The translations under genes were made by a program, and so were the position numbers. 64,000 bases of DNA from Phorcus lineatus. Lineage: Eukaryota; Mollusca; Gastropoda; Trochida; Trochidae. The stretch spans positions 13,393,940 through 13,457,939 of the forward strand of contig OV121097.1 in NCBI GenBank assembly GCA_921293015.1. The letters run 5' to 3'. Of this stretch, positions 5,413-53,432 are shown one piece after another (position 1 is the stretch's first letter; the number at the start of each line of letters is the position of its first letter). The notes under the pieces were generated by a model that searched no databases, was not told the DNA's origin, and saw only the letters and a list, made by a program, of their open reading frames with translations.

Positions 5413-12915
<7,503 letters not shown>

Positions 12916-22020: not shown

Positions 22021-22350
22021 GAAATTATATTTACTTCGGTTGAAGTATGAATAAGAAGTAAATTGTTTTCTCCTACTGGGTGTAGCTCAAGGAGTTGTCT
22101 ACCTTGATAGGTGGCGTTGATAGGGTATATAAAGGGAGACTCGATTTGAATTATCATTCTCGCTATATGCGCAGCTACGGTCACTTATTTTTACTACAAT
22201 GGACGCCAGTGCGAAACTAGACGCCATTTTGGAACAACTGGAGAGAGTGGTTTTGGTGGTTACTGTGTTGGTGTAGGTGGAGCTGTCTCTCATGGTCAAT
22301 GGGATGATCGTGAAGCTAAGAACAGTTCAACTTGGAGAGAGTTAAAGGCA

Positions 22351-23037
22351 GTGAATATGGTGCTTATGAGTATGGTTTCCACTTTAAAAAACCAAAGAGT
22401 TAAATGGTTCACTGACAATCAGGGTGTTGTAAGCATAATTGAGAAGGGCAGCATGAAGACCTATTTACAACTAATAGCTATGGACATATTCAACATATGT
22501 ATGAGGAACAGTATAGAACTACATGTGCAATGGCTTCCAAGGAACAATAACCTCCAAGCTGATTATCTGAGTCGTCTTGTTGATTATGATGACTGGGGTG
22601 TTTCACAGACAGTGTTTAATACTATTGACAAGAAGTTTGGTCCTCATCATGTTGATCGTTTTGCATCTTATTACAACACAAAACTTGATCAGTTCAATTC
22701 CAGGTACAGTCACCCAGGGTGTGCAGATGTGGACTGTTTCACAGTAGATTGGAGAGGAACTACTAGCTGGGTTGTCCCTCCTATTTGCATGATATCCAGA
22801 ACTATCAAATTTATGTCTGAGTGTCGTGTAGTAGGGACATTGGTTGTTCCAGAATGGAATGCAGCCAGTTTTTGGCCTCTCTTGTGCAAGAACTCTGTCT
22901 TCATTCCCCAAATATTATATAAACAATATTTACCCACAGCCAGAGAGTTTTATGTCCCCAGTAGAATTAAAGGTGGTTTGTTTGGTAAATCTGACTTACA
23001 TTTCAATATGATTGCTTTAATGCTTGATTTTCGTTAA
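22351..23037 (+). CDS. RNase H-like part of the YR retroelement
   Basis: An open stretch with WFTDNQGVVSII, an RNase H-like core, then HVQWLPRNNNLQADYLSR, the typical C-terminal RNase H motif of DIRS-type and related pol proteins. The downstream segment (HHVDRFASYYNTKLDQFNSR, then DCFTVDW and WVVPP) is the usual tail of DIRS-type pol. It lies between A1 and the recombinase frame. Treated as part of a fossil element. Confidence 0.75.
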   Translation: MNMVLMSMVSTLKNQRVKWFTDNQGVVSIIEKGSMKTYLQLIAMDIFNICMRNSIELHVQWLPRNNNLQADYLSRLVDYDDWGVSQTVFNTIDKKFGPHHVDRFASYYNTKLDQFNSRYSHPGCADVDCFTVDWRGTTSWVVPPICMISRTIKFMSECRVVGTLVVPEWNAASFWPLLCKNSVFIPQILYKQYLPTAREFYVPSRIKGGLFGKSDLHFNMIALMLDFR

Positions 23038-24064
23038 TTCATCATGTTTGTATGTTACAGGAGCGTTTTGTGACGCCTACAGGCGCGAGTTGGAGTGTCT
23101 GCCTGAAAATGTTGCTGATCTCGCGTATGGTTTGCCAGACTTGTTGGTAGAGGCGAAGGCAGATTCTACAAATAGAAAATACCGTTATGGTTATGCAGTT
23201 TGGAAAAGGTGGGCACATAACACCGGCATGTCTGATAGTTTGCCGATTTCACCATTGCATTGTGCTGTCTATTTGTTGGCTGTAATTCAGCAAAGTGATT
23301 CTATATCACCTGTCTTAACTGCTTTTTATAGCATTCGACATGTTCATTGTAGTATCGGATTGTCGAGTCCGGCAGATAGCTCACTTGTCAAAAATGTTTT
23401 GGAGGCGGCTAAGAGGAAGCTATCGAAACCGGTTAAGAAAAAAGAGCCTATAACAATTGATATTTTGGAGCGTGTGTATGATTCCATGATTGGTGACCCC
23501 TCAGTTTATAATTTGAGAATTTTAGCCATGTGTTTGTTAGCATATGCCGGATTTTTTAGATCCGAGGAGCTATTACATATCTGTCGTTCAGATATCATAT
23601 TCTACCAGTCCCATATGTGTCTGTTCATAGAGAAGTCTAAAACCGACATCTGTAGAGATGGTGCGTGGTTGGTGATTGGTAGAACCAATACCAAGCTTTG
23701 TCCTGTTGCATGTATAGAACATTATTTATCTGTTTCTTTAATTGATCCTCTTTCAGGTGTCTATATTTTTCGAAATGTGACTAAATGTGCTTCAAAGCAT
23801 AAGCTCAGAGATGACAATAAACCAATGTCATATACAAGACTCAGAGAGGTATTTATAGAAACTTTCAAACCATATGTCGATGACATTAAGAAATATGGAT
23901 TGCATAGTTTGCGAAGTGGAGGCGCAACTGCAGCTGCAAATAATGGTATCCCAGATCGCATGTTTAAACGTCACGGGCGTTGGAGAAGTGAAAAGGCGAA
24001 AGACGGATATATAAAAGATAGCCTTCATAATAGAATTAAGGTTTCATTATCGTTAGGACTTTAA
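23024..24064 (+). CDS. Tyrosine recombinase of the YR retroelement
   Basis: The frame encodes about 346 residues. Near the C-terminus it shows HSLRSGG (the H-x-x-R box), HGRW, and a following tyrosine (DGYIKDS), with an earlier arginine region around LAYAGFFRSEEL. These are the hallmark positions of phage-type tyrosine recombinases as used by DIRS, Ngaro and Cryptons. The RNase H neighbour and split direct repeats favour a YR retroelement over a Crypton. It slightly overlaps the preceding frame. Part of a fossil element. Confidence 0.85.
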   Translation: MIFVNSSCLYVTGAFCDAYRRELECLPENVADLAYGLPDLLVEAKADSTNRKYRYGYAVWKRWAHNTGMSDSLPISPLHCAVYLLAVIQQSDSISPVLTAFYSIRHVHCSIGLSSPADSSLVKNVLEAAKRKLSKPVKKKEPITIDILERVYDSMIGDPSVYNLRILAMCLLAYAGFFRSEELLHICRSDIIFYQSHMCLFIEKSKTDICRDGAWLVIGRTNTKLCPVACIEHYLSVSLIDPLSGVYIFRNVTKCASKHKLRDDNKPMSYTRLREVFIETFKPYVDDIKKYGLHSLRSGGATAAANNGIPDRMFKRHGRWRSEKAKDGYIKDSLHNRIKVSLSLGL

Positions 24065-26420: not shown

Positions 26421-26930
26421 CTTTACAACTTTTTTCGCACCAGAGAACTGTTCTACACGCAGTAAGGTTTGGGCGCAATGCTGCACTGAATGTCAGTGTA
26501 GTGCCGTCCATAGTTTGTTCAAGCCGTTGCTCGAAGGTTTCACCGCAATGCATAGTTACAGTAGTGTTGCAGGCTTTCTCCCTGCAATAATACTAGCAGC
26601 CGCGATATAAGTGAAATACTCATTCTAGCACAGTTAAACCCCAAACCGCTGTTATCTCAAAAATATCTTAAGTGACAATAAATAATCACGAATGTATAAA
26701 ATCATCTACAAACACATTTGTTTATGTAAATACAGAAATTCATTACAAACAATTATTCAATAATCAACCAAAAGAGACAGTCGTCTCGTGCAAGAATAAC
26801 ACGCAGGTTAACAACAACGTTTATAGAGAAAAAAACCCGATAAACATGACAAAAGTGATTGTAGCTCAAGATTTAAATCCAACCAAACGTGCATGCCTTG
26901 CCAGTTTTACTATAAATACAAGCAGTTTTC

Positions 26931-27502
26931 TACGGAAGCACCCTTGTGCCACAGTCAAACATTTTTTATCCCCAAATTAGGATATTCCATCACCTAATTA
27001 GAACTTAATCATCGCCTAATTAGGACATAAGTATCACCTAATTACGAGAAACTTTCATTAGGAGATATTATGTCCTAAATAGGACATACTAACTTCTAAT
27101 TAGGAGATAATTATCACCTAATTACGAGAAAGTATCAACTAATTAGGAAATAGCTATGTCCTAAGTAGGACTAAGTTATCTCCTAATTAGGTGATAATTA
27201 AGTCCTGTTTATGACTTAATTATCACCTAATTAGGTGTTACTATCAGCTAATTAGGAGTTACTATCTCCTAATTAGGTGATAGTATCAACTAATTAGGAC
27301 TTAGCTTAGGATTTAGTTGTCTCCTAATTATGTGTTAACTAAGTCGTAGTTAGGTGTTAAGTAAGTCCTAATTAGGGGTTACTTATCTCCTAATAAGGCG
27401 TTACTATCTCCTAATTAGGAGTTACTATCTCCTAATTAGGTGACAGTATCTCCTTATTAGGAGATAAAGAAATTTGGACTGTGGCACTAGGATGCTTCCG
27501 TA
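26931..27502. mobile_element. Fold-back element with CTAATTAGG palindrome array
   Basis: Terminal inverted repeats of about 27 bp start TACGGAAGCA (26931) and end TGCTTCCGTA (27502). A 6-bp direct repeat GTTTTC flanks both sides. The interior from about 26985 to 27476 is some 23 units with a ~21-bp spacing, most centred on the palindrome CTAATTAGG linked by GAGTTACTATCTC-like spacers. No coding capacity. Inner units differ by single bases, such as CTAATTACG, CTAAATAGG and CTAATAAGG. Confidence 0.85.
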
Positions 27503-28309
27503 GTTTTCAGTTCCAATGGGTTACTTAAAATTTCCTTGAACTACATTGCCACTGCAGTGTTTTTGAGGAGATGTTAAACATTTTAATTGCAAGATGTCAG
27601 AACAATTTGGATCTCGGAGATATGACAAAATTTATCAATTATTTAAAAATACAAAATTGCTAAAAAAATTTGCACTGAACATATCCTATCGAACATTTGA
27701 TAAATGATCAATAAACGGTTTATAAAGCAATAGACCCTCGAACAACATTGATTGAAAATATACCTTCAATGGTTAAGCAAAATGTCCATGTTCACCTAGA
27801 TAAGTGCAAGTAGAATCAAAGGAGACTAAATATGTAGTCTCTGTATGAATGTCAACTTGTCAGTGCACGGGAGTCGATTAAAAAAAGCAATAACAAATCA
27901 ACATAAAGTTATGTTGTTACGGCAGAATCGAAATCAATTTACTGTTTTTTATTACCTACGAGGATGATCATAATATGACTCTTTCATTGTGACGTAACGT
28001 CATAAACAATGAATAGTTTGCCTAAGACGTTACGTTCTATATATGACAGCGGCAGTTAACCGCCAACGCTTGAAGGTTGATTTTGATAATTCTCTTTGAT
28101 TTCGTGACTGCGTTGATAAGCAGAATATATCGCTCTCGCTCGTGAAATACTAATATCTATGCACTCGCGTCCTAAAGATAGTATATTACTGACACTTATA
28201 TAATATCCTCTATATCTGGACGTTTAACTTCTACAACATACGATTTATCAGCAACCCATCAGAGAATAGCAGTAGTAACCGCTTTGCCATTGACAACGAC
28301 TTGATTTAA
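27503..28309. other. 3' flank of lectin gene A
   Basis: No gene recognised. A segment near 27570-27720 ('gcaagatgtcag...aatttggatctc') is homologous to 36810-36930 in unit B and 55310-55450 in unit C. Confidence 0.5.
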
Positions 28310-38562: not shown

Positions 38563-41500
38563 CTAATTGCGTGGATCGTTGACGCCAGGACAGGTTGTTG
38601 GGGTGTAGCAGTCCTTGATGATGTAGGTACGCCAGTCACTGTCAGAGACCAACTCTCCAGGGATCCCAAAGAGGCAGTTGAGTTGTCCCCCTTTACGGAA
38701 GCTGAAGGCATGGCAGGTCTGATCCCTGTGGCAGAGAGTTCCACATTCAGTTGCCATAGCAACTGTGAGGGATGTTTCTGCAGTAGTAAGCGCTTTTGAC
38801 ATCTCGGTGACATACTTCGAAGCTGAAAAAAAATAAAATATTGAACGTGAATTGTTCAGAACTTTATATGAATTTTAATTTTGAGGAATTATGATGTTGT
38901 GAAAACTTGTCATGTAGATTTTGGTTTCACCAATTTCTCATTTACTTTTAAAATCATTTCAAGAATATTTGCTATTAAAAATTTATTTAGGCCTAGTTTG
39001 GGGAGGGGGCAGTTATGCCCATCATCCAAATAATCTTTTTTTAATTATTATGTCTATTAGTAGTTATAGCTAAAAGGGGCCGAGTTATCCGTCCTCCCCT
39101 AATCGGAAATGAGCTGCAAATGACAATGGCCAACTCAATACTGAAGCCTGGCCACTATAATTTCGAAGAATTGTGCCTTGATATAATAAAAGTATTGAGA
39201 TAGATGAGCGTATTGATAAAACTTTGGATAGATTTATAACTTTTTATAACAAGAAGACAGGAAACTTCGCTAACTAATGTCAGATATTAGTATAGTCGAA
39301 TCGTGATCGTTTTCACAAATTGAAGAAGATCCTAGAATGTAATCACACAAGTTTACATCATCTATAGTTGAATATCAATAAGAAATAGATCTAACATCTA
39401 ACACTAAAATCTTTAAACTTTGAATTTGTTTCCATTAGATAGATACAGTTTTATATTTAGATTTTAGATTAATGGATAGGTAACAGATATTGGTCACTGT
39501 CCAGTTTTGTATCAAGATCGGTGACATCAGGATTAAAGTATGTCCATATCTAATACCTTGACATATTGGTCCATCACGGATAAGACTTTATGATATAATA
39601 AATAAATAGCAGTTGCTTTGCGTCAATCTGATTGGCTGAACACGGTAATAGAAGTTCAGTTCATACCTCCATAAACTTAATTTCGTGACGTCACATCATT
39701 TTAAGCCACGCCCATCGACGGAACTATTTGTAAACAAGTTACTTTTTTCTAAAAATAGCAACACTTTGTGCAATGCCACTCCTTGAAAGTAGGTAAATAA
39801 AAAATTAACATAATGTAAGACTTGCTGAAATTGCCTTTTAATTAGCCAAGTTTCTGTCTCACGATAAAGGGATGGGCAAGTGTGCTAGCACGAGTACTTC
39901 GATCAAAGACAACACAACACAAGGATTAGATTAATGATGATATGTATTTTCAGAGTGACTGATATGTTAATGCTGATCTTGATCGTGCATCCAAGGGTAC
40001 CTATCAGAAATTATAAGAGCAGGGTACAGTAGATGTTGACAGCTTGGATGCAGAATCTAGAGAGCCTAATAAAATAATGAAATTATTATTTTAATTTAAT
40101 TGGAGTGGTATATAATGGATGTGATGATAACTACTTACAGGATAGAGAGATAATATAATGATTGAAATATACAATTTGGTTTGCATCAATATGTGCATAT
40201 ACCCACCCAAATAAGGAATTGTATGAAATTATAATTATTATGTTACTTCACCCATAAAGCTTCATCACACCCAACCACAGGGAATAAAGTTGCCACCTGA
40301 TGTAGAGTATAAGTCACATAGTTACCCCTAGGCCAAAAGTATACACTGTAACAATTTAAGGAGATATATCATTTATCTCCAAAATGTATAATATGTATAA
40401 GGTATAAAACCTAACAATACCGGTATTGTGTAATTTAAATGAATCATTAACCATGAAGGGCACCTGGCCTATACTTATATGGAAAATAATAAGGATGGGG
40501 CATGACTGTCTGTTGGTTGATCATACCAATCTATTTGAGACTGGCTCCAACAATATGTACAAACACCCATTAGGTAGAGTAACAAGAAACTACCCAAAAC
40601 ATGGATACCTAACTTTAGTAAAATGAAATATATCAAAATGCAATAATAAGATATTACATAATTAAATTTTACTAAAAGTTGAAGGTAAAAATAGAAAGTG
40701 CCTAGAAGTAATACATAATGTATTATTAAGATAACAGTGACTTTACATCAAGTGGACAACATAAAGAGTTTACAATAATGTTAATAATGGCTAAATCATT
40801 GTGAAAAAACCTCACACTGTATAAACAAGTAAAGAAGTGAGCACAGCTCACATACCCCCGCTTCAAACTATAGTCTAGCTTTCTTTGTTGGTCTTACCCT
40901 CAAAAAGCTCACTCAGGGATCATGGTTGATAAGTATATTAAGTTCGTGAAGCTAGCATGTATAGTTTAAGAGATATGTTCAGGAAAAAGCACTTTGTCAG
41001 ATAGTCACTGTTTTAGTAACGTTTCCATGAAAACCGCAAAAAATAAAAATAATTTTTTGCTCTTACCCTCAAGAGGAGCACCAATATGGATCATGGTTGA
41101 TAAGTGTATGAAGTTTGGTGATGATAGCATGTACGGTTTAGAAGATATACTCCGGACAAAGGACTTAATTAAAATTCACTGTTTCAGTCATGTTTCCATG
41201 GAAACCGCAAAAAAATAAAAATCATTTGTTGGTCTAACCCTCAAAAGGCACATCTAGGGATGATGGTTGATAAGTGTATGAAGTTTTGTGAAGCTAGCAT
41301 GTATAGTTTAGGAGATATGCTCCGGACAAAGGACTTGGTCTTAGAGTCACTGTTTTAGTCATGTTTCCATGGAAACGGCAAAAAATAAAAATCATTTGTT
41401 GGTCTAACCCACAAATGGCACATCTAGAGATCATGGTTGATAATTGTATGAAGTTTGGTGAAGCTAGCATGTATAGTTTAAGAGATATGCTCCGGACAAA

Positions 41501-44500
41501 GGACTTTGTTACATTTCAAGTCATGTTTCCATGGACACAGCAAAAAATAAAAATCATTTGTTGGTCTAACCCTCAAAAGGCACATCTAGGGATCATGGTT
41601 GATAAGTGTATGAAGTTTGGTGAAGCTAGCATGTATAGTTTAGGAGATATGCTCCGGACAAAAGACTTGGTCATAGAGTCACTGTTTTAGTCATGTTTCC
41701 ATGGAAACGGCAAAAAATAAAAACCATTTGTTGGTCTAACCCTCAAAAGGCACATCTAGGGATGATGGTTGATAAGTGTATGAAATTTGGTGAAGCTAGC
41801 ATGTATAGTTTAGGAGATATGCTCCGGACAAAAGACTTGGTCAAAGAGTCACTGTTTTAGTCATGTTTCCATGGAAACGGCAAAAAATAAAAATCATTTG
41901 TTGGTCTAACCCTCAAAAGGCACATCTAGGGATGATGGTTGATAAGTGTATGAAGTTTGGTGAAGCTAGCATTTAAAGTTTAGGAGATATGCTCCGGACA
42001 AAGATTTGTGACGGACGGACAGACGGACAGACGGACAGACGGACAGACGGACGGACAGAATGAACGCTATATACCCCCGCTTACGCTGTAAGGCGGGGGT
42101 ATAATAAATATTGATAGCAATAATTAGAGGGATGAGGAAAAACAATGATGGCATTAATCACGACATTGTGAAAAAAACATCACACGAAGATATTGTGACA
42201 ATATATTGCTTGAAAAGCAGATCAAAATAAACAACCGATTTGAATACAAATCTTATGTAATGTGATGAAAAAACAATGAGTGTTAATGCTTAGCCAGTGA
42301 AATGATTATGATGCATGAGCGCCGATGATATGAGTAATGTGTAGTAATTGTACTATTGGAGAGATAATTGAAATTACTTTTATCAAACTAATTTCTAACA
42401 TGAGACAGTATTGTAACTTAAACATGATAAAGATGCTTTTGTACCAATCATACAATAATGTAACCCAATAATGGAAGAGACTAAGGATTTCCCTCGTAAA
42501 GTTAAAAAAACTTTAGCAGACGACGGTTTGTTTACCTATAGGGCGCCGCCATCTTTATTACCCATAACCCCTGAAGAAGGTAATCTAAAAATAGAGTTGG
42601 GGTAGCCTAACAGGGAATCCCTAATGGAGCTGCAGTGTTGATTACATGGCTTGAGGGCTTAATTAGTACCACGTGTTGCTGAGACAAAGGAATCAACACT
42701 GAAAAGAGGTGATTTGAATTTTGCATTGCGCAAAATGAATTTTGACTGGCAGATCAAATGGTTGAATTATTTCAAAAAGAAAGCAACAGTTACATAAATA
42801 TAATTTCCAGAATGGAAATATTGTTTTCTTGAATTACTGAATGCCATTATTCTTGCCTTTGGGTGCATAAGGGGTTGTGCAACTGAGCAACATCCCCGCA
42901 CGGCGAGAATATCTTTACAATTTGGAATGAAGCAAAACCCTTTACGCCAGTAAATAACTAAATATTCACAATGCCCTTCTATGTGAGTGCATGAAATAAA
43001 AACATCACAAGCATATATGAAGGATAGCATCTTAAATTAAAATCACACACTAATAGAAGGAAACATACAATTTTGATAAGTTCTTACCTATCAGAAATTA
43101 TAAGAGCAGGGTACAGTAGATGTTGACAGCTTGGATGCAGAATCTAGAGAGGCCTACTTTGCACTTTCCCGGGCATGAGTTGGTCACCTGACCATTTCCA
43201 TTGGTCAGTTTGGTCTAACTTTCCCCCAGTCTATAAGAACCCCTCCAGAACTCTCACTGCCCCAAAGCTTAACATCTGGTATTACCCTGTAAGGGTCACC
43301 CTGACCTAGTCTACTGACCTCTCTGTTAATTAGTATAAGGGACAGATTTGTGTTAAATATAATGTATATAAAATACATAAATATGGGCCGTTACACTAAT
43401 TCAGTATGAAATTATCATTGTTGTCAAAGGTTCTTAAGATAGTCCTTTCCATAATAAACAAGAGAGCTCTATCAGAAATTACAACCGATCGTGTTCCACC
43501 CCACAGAAGGCAAATGTCATTGTTCAATGCTCTCGCGGCCGTTGCAGGGAGGTTGGCAAAGTAATGTCGTTAAGTTTATGAACAGAGTTAAGCTTGGCTC
43601 CTCAACAAGGTTATGAACTGTGTGCTGTTTTATCAGATTCCGTTAGATCGAGATCATAACACCACCAGCATAGGCATGTACGAGGGAAAATTCGGCTGGT
43701 TTCCTCTCCGAGTTCTACGTTCGTGATTTGTGTTTTCAACTGTGAGAACTAGCAATGTCAAGGCCACGTGTGACGGACGTCCGAGAAGTTCATGGCCACG
43801 TGCCTTGTAGATTTTCATTGGCTGATGAACGTTTTGTAGGCGGGGCTAGGGATCCGATTAAGTTTTGATTGACATTTTATCTCTTTCATGCTGTTGAGCG
43901 TTGAATTCATTCGCATATATAGTGCAGCTCTATTTGGTGCAAATATGTATATTGAGAGCAATAAAATGGTTAAAAACAACTAGTATGTATATATTTATTT
44001 ATAAGAATTGACTTCAACATTTATTAAGTTCATGGAGGTATAAACTTAAAAACCGATGTGCAAACTCGGCGTATATCCGCTACGCGGATTCACACAGTTT
44101 GCACATCGGTTTTTAAGTTTATACCTCCATGAACTTAATAAATGTTGAAATCAATTCTTAAATATCCTTGCATCTATATAATAACAATACGTTCTTCATG
44201 TTCTCCTGTTTGAGATTACGTTAGTATGGCATAAAACACTTTTGGACATGGAGGGTTTAGCATTGTAACACTGTTTGTAAGCTATGAAGTTTTTATAAAC
44301 TGGAAAGTTTTGGAAGAAAACCAAATTTAAAATCTTGGTTTTTAATTGTTCACCGAATGAAGATTATTCCTTGTAGAATTATTAGCCTTTTGAAAACAAA
44401 GTTAAGAATTTCAACGTTGAATTTTTTCATTTCAATCTATATTAGTTAAAGCTGGTTTGGCAACTAAAACATTTTTACCTCTCAGTATCTGTTCAGATGG

Positions 44501-50625: not shown

Positions 50626-53432
50626 GAGTGAGTGAGTGAGTGAGTGAGTTGTAGTTTAACGCCGCTTGGGCAATATTTCAGCCATTCGCTGCGACTTATT
50701 TTGGAGGTGTTGCCATTGTCTATCGTGATCATCTACACATATCATTTCCATCAAATCAGACTTTTCAAGTCTCTTCTTTTGAATTCATTGAGACACTACT
50801 CACACATGGGAAAACAGCAACCAGAATCATTGTGATTTATCGACCGCCACCATCTCAAAAGAATAACTTCTCTTTCAAATTGTTCTATGATGAATTCAGT
50901 CATTTTTTGGACATACTATCTCATGCGAAAGGCAGGTTGCTTATCATTGGTGATTTCAACATACATTTTGACAATATAACCCACTGTGACACCCATAAAA
51001 TGATAAAGCTGCTTGAAGGCCACAACCTGTTTCAGCACGTATCTGCTGCCACACACAAGTCCGGCCATATCATAGATTGGGTAGTAACAAGAAACTCTGA
51101 AAGCCCCCTGTGTTCCACATCAGTTACTGACTTACAGATATCTGATCATTTCCTTGTGTCCTTGGTGTTGGATACCACGAGACCACTAAGACCAAAAGCA
51201 TCTATAAGATGTAGAAACTTGGCCAAAATGGATACAGGATCTTTTAGATATGACCTGATGAACTCTGATCTTGTTCAACATCCGCCCGATGATATCAATG
51301 AACTTTGTAATATCTACAACAAGGTGCTTTGTGAATTGCTAGACAAACACGCCCCAGAAAAGTTGAAGCATATACCTATGCGCTCTGATCCAACATGGAT
51401 GATGACACCTGATATTCATGAAGCCCGCTGCAAAAGACGTCAAGCTGAGCGTCTATGGAGAAAGAGCCATCTAGAAATTCACAGACAGATCTACAAGACA
51501 GAAAGAAATCATGTAACAACATTGATTGGTATTTGCAAGCGACAACACATATCTCAAAAGATCACCGAATCATCATCAAATCCAAAGGCACTGTATAAGA
51601 TATTGTTCAAGCTTATGGGAAAGGAAAAGGATACGTCTCTACCCTCTTTAGACGACAAGCAACAGTTGGCAAATTCTTTTGCAAACTTCTTCTCAAAGAA
51701 AATCGAGCTGATACGTGAAGATCTCCTGAGGTTTGTTCAACCGTGTGAGTCTGATCCTGCCAGTTCTAATGTCCCCCCTCTGTCCTGCTACAGACAACTC
51801 ACAGAGCAGGATGTCCACCAGCTCATCAAGCGGAGCAAACCAACCTCGTGTGCCTATGATCCAGTTCCAACCTGCATCATAACTGAAAATCTTGACATCC
51901 TGTTGCCTACTCTAACTAGGCTTGTTAATGTCAGTCTCCAATCCGGTATCTTCCCTGACCAACTAAAGCAAGCTATTGTCAAACCTCTGTTAAAAAAGAA
52001 GACTCTCAACCAAGAAGATCTCAAAAACTTTCGACCTGTGTCTAATCTTGCTTACTTGGGAAAACTCGTAGAGAAGGCTGTGGCGTCTCAAATCCAAGAA
52101 CATTTGAGTGAAAACAACTTGTACCCAAAGTTCCAGTCTGCATATCGACAGAAACACAGTACCGAAACGGCCCTCCTACGAGTGATAAATGACATCAGGT
52201 GTGGCGTTGACCAGGGGAATGTTGCACTACTGATTCTACTCGATCTTAGTGCGGCGTTCGATACGATAGACCACATCAACTTATTACGACGATTGAACCT
52301 TGACTTTGGCTTCAGTGGAGTAGCAATGAGCTGGATCAAGTCCTATCTCTCCAACAGGTCGCAAACAGTTTTCGTAGATGGTTGCAAATCAACGTCCGTC
52401 CAACTCAACTACGGAGTCCCTCAGGGGTCTGTCTTAGGGCCGATCCTTTTCAGCATGTACGTCGCACCACTAGAACACATACTTCATAGTCTACCGCATC
52501 ATTTTTATGCTGATGACTCGCAGCTGTCCAAGATATTCAGACCTACACCTTCTGATGCAGCCCAATCCGCTGAAGACATCACCGACTGCTGTTCAGACAT
52601 TAAACAGTGGATGACTCAGAATACACTGAAGTTAAACGAAGAAAAGACTGAAGCCATTCTAATCGGACCAAAGAATAGGCGGTTGAATGCAAACATCAGC
52701 TCAGTAACAGTTGGACCAAGTGAGATTCCCCTCAGCAGTAAGGTTAAGAATCTTGGCGTCATCCTGGACACTGATCTCTGCATGGAGTCCCATGTTAACT
52801 TCACCACTCAAACATGCTACCTTCAACTCCGCAATATTGGCAAGATCCGGAAATTCATAACAAAAGAAGCAGCAGTTAAACTAGTCATCTCCCTTGTTAT
52901 GTCAAAAATTGACTATTGTAACTCCTTGCTAACGGGTACATCCAAACAGACCATTGACAAATTACAACGCCTGCAGAATACTGCAGCTCGCATTGTGACT
53001 CTCTCTCCAAGAAGATGTCACATTACGCCTATTCTCGCTTCGCTCCACTGGCTCCCAATTCAGCAAAGAATTCAATACAAAGTTTTGTGTCTCACATACC
53101 AATGTGTCACTGGTACAGCTCCAACTTACCTTCAGGAACTCATAAAGGCTCACAATCCTGTCAGATCACTCAGATCCGCATCACAACACCTGCTCCAAGT
53201 GCCAAATACAAAACTGAAAACTTACGGAGAACGATCTTTCTCTTCATCAGCAGCCAAACTTTGGAATCCTCTTCCAATTGAAATAAAGACAGCCTCATCC
53301 CTGACTGTTTTTAAGAAACTGTTGAAAACTCATCTTTTCACCCAGGCTTTTTCTCTCTGCGCTACGAGCATGTCTTAACATGGAGACATTGCGCATTACA
53401 AATGGACTATTTATTTTTATTTATTTATTTAT
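50626..53432 (+). mobile_element. L2-like LINE, 5'-truncated, frame unbroken
   Basis: The element ends in an ATTT microsatellite (about 53408-53436), the normal L2-type tail. A 12-bp candidate target duplication TTATTTAATTGT lies at 50614-50625 and 53433-53444. The 5' part (50626-50696) is not LINE coding. It is a GAGT microsatellite plus GTTTAACGCCGC, a separate dispersed repeat, suggesting a chimeric 5' end. The open frame shows little decay, so insertion is probably recent. Confidence 0.85.
50697..53378 (+). CDS. LINE endonuclease (partial)-reverse transcriptase
   Basis: The frame is open from about 50697 (GGVAIVYRDHL) to the stop at 53376-53378, roughly 893 residues. The start is truncated inside the apurinic-type endonuclease domain; its second half is visible (IYRPPPSQ, GDFNIHFDN, SDHFLVSL). 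The reverse transcriptase follows with LKNFRPVSNL, ILLDLSAAFDTIDH, GVPQGSVLGPILF and the catalytic YADD (FYADDSQL). The C-terminal tail has HITPILASLHWLPI, GTAPTYL, RSLRSASQ and LKTHLF. The assembly fits the CR1/L2 group. It cannot make a full ORF product, since ORF1 and the endonuclease start are absent. Confidence 0.9.
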   Translation, partial: YFGGVAIVYRDHLHISFPSNQTFQVSSFEFIETLLTHGKTATRIIVIYRPPPSQKNNFSFKLFYDEFSHFLDILSHAKGRLLIIGDFNIHFDNITHCDTHKMIKLLEGHNLFQHVSAATHKSGHIIDWVVTRNSESPLCSTSVTDLQISDHFLVSLVLDTTRPLRPKASIRCRNLAKMDTGSFRYDLMNSDLVQHPPDDINELCNIYNKVLCELLDKHAPEKLKHIPMRSDPTWMMTPDIHEARCKRRQAERLWRKSHLEIHRQIYKTERNHVTTLIGICKRQHISQKITESSSNPKALYKILFKLMGKEKDTSLPSLDDKQQLANSFANFFSKKIELIREDLLRFVQPCESDPASSNVPPLSCYRQLTEQDVHQLIKRSKPTSCAYDPVPTCIITENLDILLPTLTRLVNVSLQSGIFPDQLKQAIVKPLLKKKTLNQEDLKNFRPVSNLAYLGKLVEKAVASQIQEHLSENNLYPKFQSAYRQKHSTETALLRVINDIRCGVDQGNVALLILLDLSAAFDTIDHINLLRRLNLDFGFSGVAMSWIKSYLSNRSQTVFVDGCKSTSVQLNYGVPQGSVLGPILFSMYVAPLEHILHSLPHHFYADDSQLSKIFRPTPSDAAQSAEDITDCCSDIKQWMTQNTLKLNEEKTEAILIGPKNRRLNANISSVTVGPSEIPLSSKVKNLGVILDTDLCMESHVNFTTQTCYLQLRNIGKIRKFITKEAAVKLVISLVMSKIDYCNSLLTGTSKQTIDKLQRLQNTAARIVTLSPRRCHITPILASLHWLPIQQRIQYKVLCLTYQCVTGTAPTYLQELIKAHNPVRSLRSASQHLLQVPNTKLKTYGERSFSSSAAKLWNPLPIEIKTASSLTVFKKLLKTHLFTQAFSLCATSMS

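Follow-up and report, generated by a model that had tools for sequence, protein, structure and literature searches.

The locus considered here raises the question of why a short piece of mobile DNA should be built almost wholly of palindromes that hold TAATTA, the homeodomain core, at their centre. It lies on contig C39 of the 958-Mb Phorcus lineatus genome, within an analysed stretch of 64,000 nucleotides (the window), and forms a gene-less repeated element of 572 bp at positions 26931-27502, bounds which are exactly those given by the original prediction. That prediction had described an element transposed as a package, and had proposed that it might titrate homeodomain factors or act as a portable enhancer, or else that its array serves only for fold-back.

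The element starts with TACGGAAGC and finishes with GCTTCCGTA, and is bracketed by an exact 6-bp target-site duplication, GTTTTC, at 26925-26930 on the left and 27503-27508 on the right. The left terminal inverted repeat, or C-end (26931-26955, plus strand), begins with TACGGAAGCAC and fits the pattern TAYGGWRGC-N8-GCCA; the right one, or T-end (27478-27502, minus strand), begins with TACGGAAGCAT when read on its own strand, and 34 of the first 40 bases are identical between the two. A short A/T-rich linker (26956-26966, plus strand) leads from the left end to the array (26967-27466), which consists of 22-23 two-fold-symmetric units of about 20 bp, TA-WS-T-CCTAATTAGG-A-SW-TA, repeated with a step of 21-22 bp. 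Twenty-two unit centres are recognized with up to four mismatches, and 23 with a looser spacing limit; 19 of the 21 steps measure 21-22 bp, the two others being wider (37 and 34 bp). The whole 64-kb window contains 20 sites with at most one mismatch to CCTAATTAGG, all of which fall within 26931-27502. Thus, the terminal inverted repeats and the GTTTTC duplication of the original prediction are both present, and its figure of about 23 units was right, with 22 or 23 centres depending on the spacing rule applied.

Several other repeats are found elsewhere in the window. At 22150-24064, two frames resemble the remnant of a DIRS-type retroelement, with matches of RNase-H-like, Dam-like and tyrosine-recombinase type that all fall slightly short of the Pfam cut-offs. 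A frame of 907 aa at 50655-53378 with endonuclease/exonuclease/phosphatase and reverse transcriptase domains represents a LINE, and tandem repeats are located at 9441-10356 (a 32-bp minisatellite, 29 copies) and at 40884-42003 (a 170-bp repeat, 6.6 copies).

A search with the whole element detected at least 136 matching stretches in the genome, a lower bound because 40 of 366 candidates were scored. The original prediction had proposed a search of the genome for the element ends, and the 25-base end pattern occurs at 267 exact places genome-wide, compared with none for the reversed pattern used as a control. The 61 loci fetched (L001-L061) contained 52 two-ended copies, 48 of which were kept after dropping four repeats of copies already counted; this set comprises ends with a facing partner within 1.6 kb at no more than six mismatches, and its members span 138-909 bp. 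Target-site duplications of 6 bp are exact in 34 of the 48 copies, show one mismatch in six and more in eight (14 copies are therefore without an exact duplication), and they favour G as the first base (17 of the exact ones) and C as the last (19). At control lengths in the same register, exact duplications of 3, 4 or 7-10 bases were seen in none of the 48 copies and of 5 bases in a single one. Shared flanks show that three of the 48 rows are one insertion which was later duplicated; with this insertion counted once, 33 of 46 are exact. Transposition as a package is thereby borne out. The short length, the inverted ends, the duplications, the many copies and the lack of a transposase are all features of MITEs, and the window element is a non-autonomous, MITE-like DNA transposon.

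The two ends are distinct, base 11 being C at one and T at the other, and a C-end is paired with a T-end in 42 of the 48 copies. When the copies longer than 450 bp are oriented with the C-end on the left, the best alignment is in the same direction for 704 of 780 pairs. On C1, three copies (L042 and two in L043), each 235-237 bp long, have the target duplication and 30-bp flanks in common, and two of these flank-sharing copies are 7.26 kb apart, which suggests a larger duplicated segment. The L031 copy carries an internal deletion inside one terminal repeat (TACGGAAGCACCACAGTC), with TTATTT at both sides.

To which group of transposons does the element belong? The TACGG...CCGTA termini of the window copy and its relatives correspond to TA..TA, and TA..TA termini combined with 6-bp target duplications are the signature of IS3EU/GingerRoot elements in the available text of PMC10045372, which also gives target duplications of usually 6 bp and a DDE integrase-type transposase, with the first D 100-300 residues from the N-terminus, as features of membership. 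A profile search of the genome with the Pfam model rva_4 detected 18 stretches. This model was chosen because it presumably covers transposases of this kind. The L064 copy has an open frame of 324 aa with the rva_4 domain and a D163-D222-E263 set (numbered along the stop-to-stop frame); compared with Pfam, this transposase matched only rva_4 and, below threshold, rve, and no DNA-binding domain was found. The ends of family F1, TACGGAAGCCAAATAGGGCC, bracket three copies with unbroken 324-aa frames (7.6 kb on C1, 7.7 kb on C16 and 8.8 kb on C29), and at the C1 copy, the one at which target flanks were read, the duplication is 7 bp and not 6 (GGATGAT; L064/L068). On C9, a copy of 9.07 kb whose frame is broken is bracketed by the ends of family F3 (TATGGAAGCGCATTGCTGCCAGCAGT) and has a 6-bp duplication (GTTACC), and family F2 (TACGGTGGCATATTAGGGCCATCTG) flanks a transposase match on C7 on both sides, 11.8 kb apart, with the near end read. 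A gene-less F2 copy of 383 bp is nested in a transposase-bearing F2 element (L066, C7:596100-597030), where it is accompanied by a 6-bp duplication (ATAAAG) and occupies a TATA-like sequence between the array and the gene of its host element. On C9 (23798264-23810889), the F2 end recurs every 1.8-1.9 kb or so on one strand, a pattern such as a copy expanded into a satellite would leave.

The pattern TAYGGWRGC-N8-GCCA fits the ends of F1, F2 and F3 and, on either side, those of the window element (family F4); because it was picked after these four families had been seen, their common fit is not a blind test. It is found at 1384 places in the genome, which include those families, compared with 26 for the reversed pattern. 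With TA..TA termini, 6-bp duplications and relatives that encode an rva_4 DDE integrase-type transposase whose first D is residue 163, the window element is, judged by its sequence, very probably a non-autonomous DNA transposon of the IS3EU/GingerRoot type.

No transposase copy with the window family's own ends was detected when 165 listed element places (of 267 exact ends in the genome) were compared with 94 transposase matches. Among the places listed, the nearest transposase match is at least 16 kb away; for the catalytic part the smallest distance is 48 kb, to a match from another family. Sixty-four of the 94 matches are confined to the N-terminal region (up to about residue 120) and do not include the catalytic core, and this domain may be common to another transposon or gene family. 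Ends without an exact partner account for 52 of 100 listed. Twenty of them (L031-L050) were examined together with 8 kb of inward sequence; 13 had a second end at up to eight mismatches and seven had none, and in one case (L038) the second end is 5.4 kb away with LINE-like frames between. The relative's transposase had no match in these 20 stretches, and none below E 1 in L001-L061 (tblastn). Similarly, no relative of this transposase was found in viral contigs and species genomes, comparison by sequence with the PDB gave no match below E 0.1, and the three-unit array pattern had 0 matches in viral contigs.

The palindrome array itself recurs in the transposase-bearing relatives. In four of five rva_4 loci read (L062, L064, L065, L066) an array is located between the end and the transposase, and L063, a distant relative (38% identity over 89 residues), has none. 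The palindrome unit is TTGAAATTTCAA in L064, L065 and L066 and TCTAATTAGA in L062. Two transposase-enclosing families thus have TTGAAATTTCAA where the window family has TAATTA, with the array and its 21-bp step preserved, and in another family with a transposase-bearing copy the centre is TAATTA (TCATCTAATTAGATGA), as in the window family. Both families in which both ends were read (L062/L067 and L064/L068) have arrays at both ends. All steps measure 21 bp in L064 (17 of 17) and L068 (15 of 15), and 21 bp is the commonest step in the arrays of the other relatives, with some of 16-36 bp; in the window family, 1195 units were counted over 48 copies, with a step of 21 or 22 bp in 1086 of 1147 cases. 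Unit number varies by copy, and array lengths range from 482 to 827 bp among L001-L030. A central AATT and a step of about 21 bp are common to all array types. In L065 and L066 the array is directly followed by a TATA-like sequence, TATATAAAG. As the arrays stand beside the gene in the relatives with their step kept, the array probably belonged to the transposon end from the ancestor onwards, and we infer that the window element would represent two such ends with their arrays, joined without the gene. Gene-less copies could in general have arisen through the joining of two ends together with their arrays.

Conservation over the 1195 units is highest throughout CCTAATTAGG and at the TA steps located four to five bases further out (1.3-1.9 bits), with variable positions between. 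TAATTA is intact in 1002 of the 1195 units; because likeness to CCTAATTAGG was used to select the centres, the values for the core are somewhat too high. For pairwise comparisons the 40 copies longer than 450 bp were used. In 49 pairs with 75-88% identity, differences affect 412 of 5756 TAATTA positions (7.2%) versus 1359 of 5533 flank positions (24.6%), the latter possibly inflated by misregistered units, and 350 of 3840 CC/GG positions (9.1%), 317 of 3750 outer TA positions (8.5%) and 16.0% elsewhere. Raw counts for 15 nearest-neighbour pairs with at least 94% identity are 54 of 2741 (2.0%) for TAATTA versus 139 of 2725 (5.1%) for the flanks, with 3.8% for CC/GG, 4.1% for the outer TA and 5.7% elsewhere. 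To avoid swapped or misregistered units, isolated differences were also counted alone, in pairs with 400 or more aligned bases. Here TAATTA shows 4 differences in 377 positions versus 3 in 387 for the flanks at 97% identity or above (three disjoint pairs), 8 in 495 versus 6 in 507 at 95% or above (five pairs), and 16 in 803 versus 28 in 812 at 93% or above (ten pairs; p=0.09). The expectation that copies keep TAATTA more than the spacers thus holds for diverged pairs and for the raw counts between nearest neighbours, but not for isolated differences at the two highest identity levels. Taken over the history of the transposon, the comparison points clearly to constraint on TAATTA; for protection after insertion, the raw and the isolated counts point in opposite directions. 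The CC/GG positions and the outer TA steps are nearly as conserved, which indicates a two-fold-symmetric site of about 20 bp, longer than a homeodomain core.

This length bears on the proposal that host homeodomain proteins bind the TAATTA units and that the element is a decoy or a portable enhancer, which we consider very unlikely. The high proportion of intact cores would suit such a role, as would the TAATTA centre of another transposase-bearing family, and sparing of TAATTA between subfamilies and, in the raw counts, between nearest neighbours is what host use would also predict. However, conservation reaches beyond the core to CC/GG and the outer TA steps, related families carry TTGAAATTTCAA at the same place and step, and TAATTA is not spared when isolated differences are counted at 97% or 95% identity and above, although these are few events and those at 93% lean the opposite way. 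Given that transposase-bearing relatives have similar arrays, some of them made of another palindrome, a part in the transposition machinery is likelier than a portable homeodomain enhancer. The titration and enhancer ideas are thus weakened by the TTGAAATTTCAA arrays and by the constraint outside TAATTA and are no longer favoured; homeodomain use as a side effect of the array is possible. The recurrence of step and position with different units in related families, together with the contrast between conserved centres and variable flanks, also speaks against a by-product minisatellite that grows by slippage or unequal exchange and is tolerated, as in Tetris or bivalve Helentrons, an explanation which seems distinctly improbable. 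The variable unit number, seen in array lengths as well as in the span of the copies, agrees with it, and in the published example of Tetris, internal repeats have seeded satellites (PMC4079207, available text). Yet among 100 of 4008 places listed, all on C1, the array units form 10 clusters, nine of which adjoin the window family's ends and one of which is inside a motif-bracketed element, and no free satellites of array units were seen among these 10.

Another possibility is that structure was selected instead of sequence-specific binding, either as hairpins and cruciforms or as phased AATT tracts that bend DNA or exclude nucleosomes. The AATT centre and the step of about 21 bp shared by all array types would fit this reading, and in single-strand folding the window element reaches -147.2 kcal/mol compared with -46.5 (sd 4.4) for 100 shuffles, but strong folding relative to shuffles is expected because any row of palindromes must fold. 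When the flanks were permuted in 12 of the 48 copies, folding became weaker in 10 of them, mostly slightly and in one case strongly (z -4.9), and one flank position (-2/+11) matches across the unit centre more often than in shuffles. Flank triplets as a whole, in contrast, match less often than in shuffles across the centre (9.6% vs 14.4%) and more rarely still across the spacer (6.8% vs 14.4%), the z-scores of these comparisons being inflated because the units are related by descent. In the 42 copies with 10 or more units, a mirror-like order of flanks and units, reached by no more than 10 of 200 shuffles, was found in six, and a general mirror-image order, that is, a global fold-back, was rejected on this basis. 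The structural evidence is thus mixed and does little to suggest that the array exists mainly for fold-back; with flanks that match across the centre less often than in shuffles, the suggestion that the array serves only for fold-back is not favoured, and we regard selection for structure in general as unlikely.

The explanation that we consider rather probable is that of a gene-less IS3EU/GingerRoot-type element whose array would be a platform for its own transposase, in end recognition and/or autoregulation; taken by itself, the platform role is about as likely as not. A dimer of the DDE transposase or of another element-encoded protein would dock on each two-fold-symmetric palindrome of about 20 bp, and units two helical turns apart would point to the same or nearly the same side of the DNA. 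A phased array might in this way recruit many dimers, mark the adjacent end as transposon DNA and help to pair the ends. In the relatives, where it stands between end and transposase gene, the array could also serve autoregulation, a role that would suit its place beside the gene and the TATA-like TATATAAAG that follows it in L065 and L066.

More tentatively, it is possible that some 20 to 30 helically phased palindromes, all sharing one symmetry, define the ends of these elements, and that transposase dimers would assemble on such an array into a higher-order complex. The unit might then have been replaced in evolution (TTGAAATTTCAA, TCTAATTAGA, CCTAATTAGG) together with the DNA-binding region of the protein while the step of about 21 bp stayed fixed; every family would have an address of its own, and gene-less copies would be nearly all address. 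If true, this would explain a transposon made almost wholly of palindromes, and it would provide a natural series in which changes in a DNA site go along with changes in the protein presumed to bind it, the spacing being fixed. TAATTA arrays in animal genomes could then be transposon machinery and not homeodomain enhancers. The presence of four families in one genome makes the coupling of transposase and unit directly testable.

Compared with known systems, the transposon kind of the element is itself already known, but arrays of this type in IS3EU seem to be undescribed: no description of palindromic arrays in IS3EU was found in the literature searched, a body that leaves Repbase and most subscription papers outside, and the available text of PMC10045372 makes no mention of them. 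The window copy further differs from IS3EU/GingerRoot elements in being without a transposase. Foldback-like elements have long inverted ends made of internal tandem repeats. In the window family any array folds because every unit is palindromic, and the unit order is mirror-like in only the six of 42 copies mentioned above. Tetris, a foldback transposon of D. virilis, is likewise apparently non-autonomous, and its internal tandem repeats fed longer arrays, but these repeats are of about 220 bp and no phased palindromes are described in the part of PMC4079207 available. In bivalves, tandem repeats are tied to mobile elements in repeat-bearing MITEs and satellites, and two oyster satellites are labelled IS3EU, although the accessible text of the source (PMC8268682) describes neither a transposase-side array nor a palindromic unit. 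Galileo likewise has long, internally repeated ends, and binding of its transposase, through the THAP domain, to sites in these internal repeats has been shown, which gives a precedent for the platform reading; its authors suggest that the many sites supply specificity (PMC3688188, as far as available). Galileo, however, is a member of the P superfamily, and its extra sites are few and wide apart (561-577 and 701-718 bp in the same available text), whereas units at a step of 21-22 bp fill the window element.
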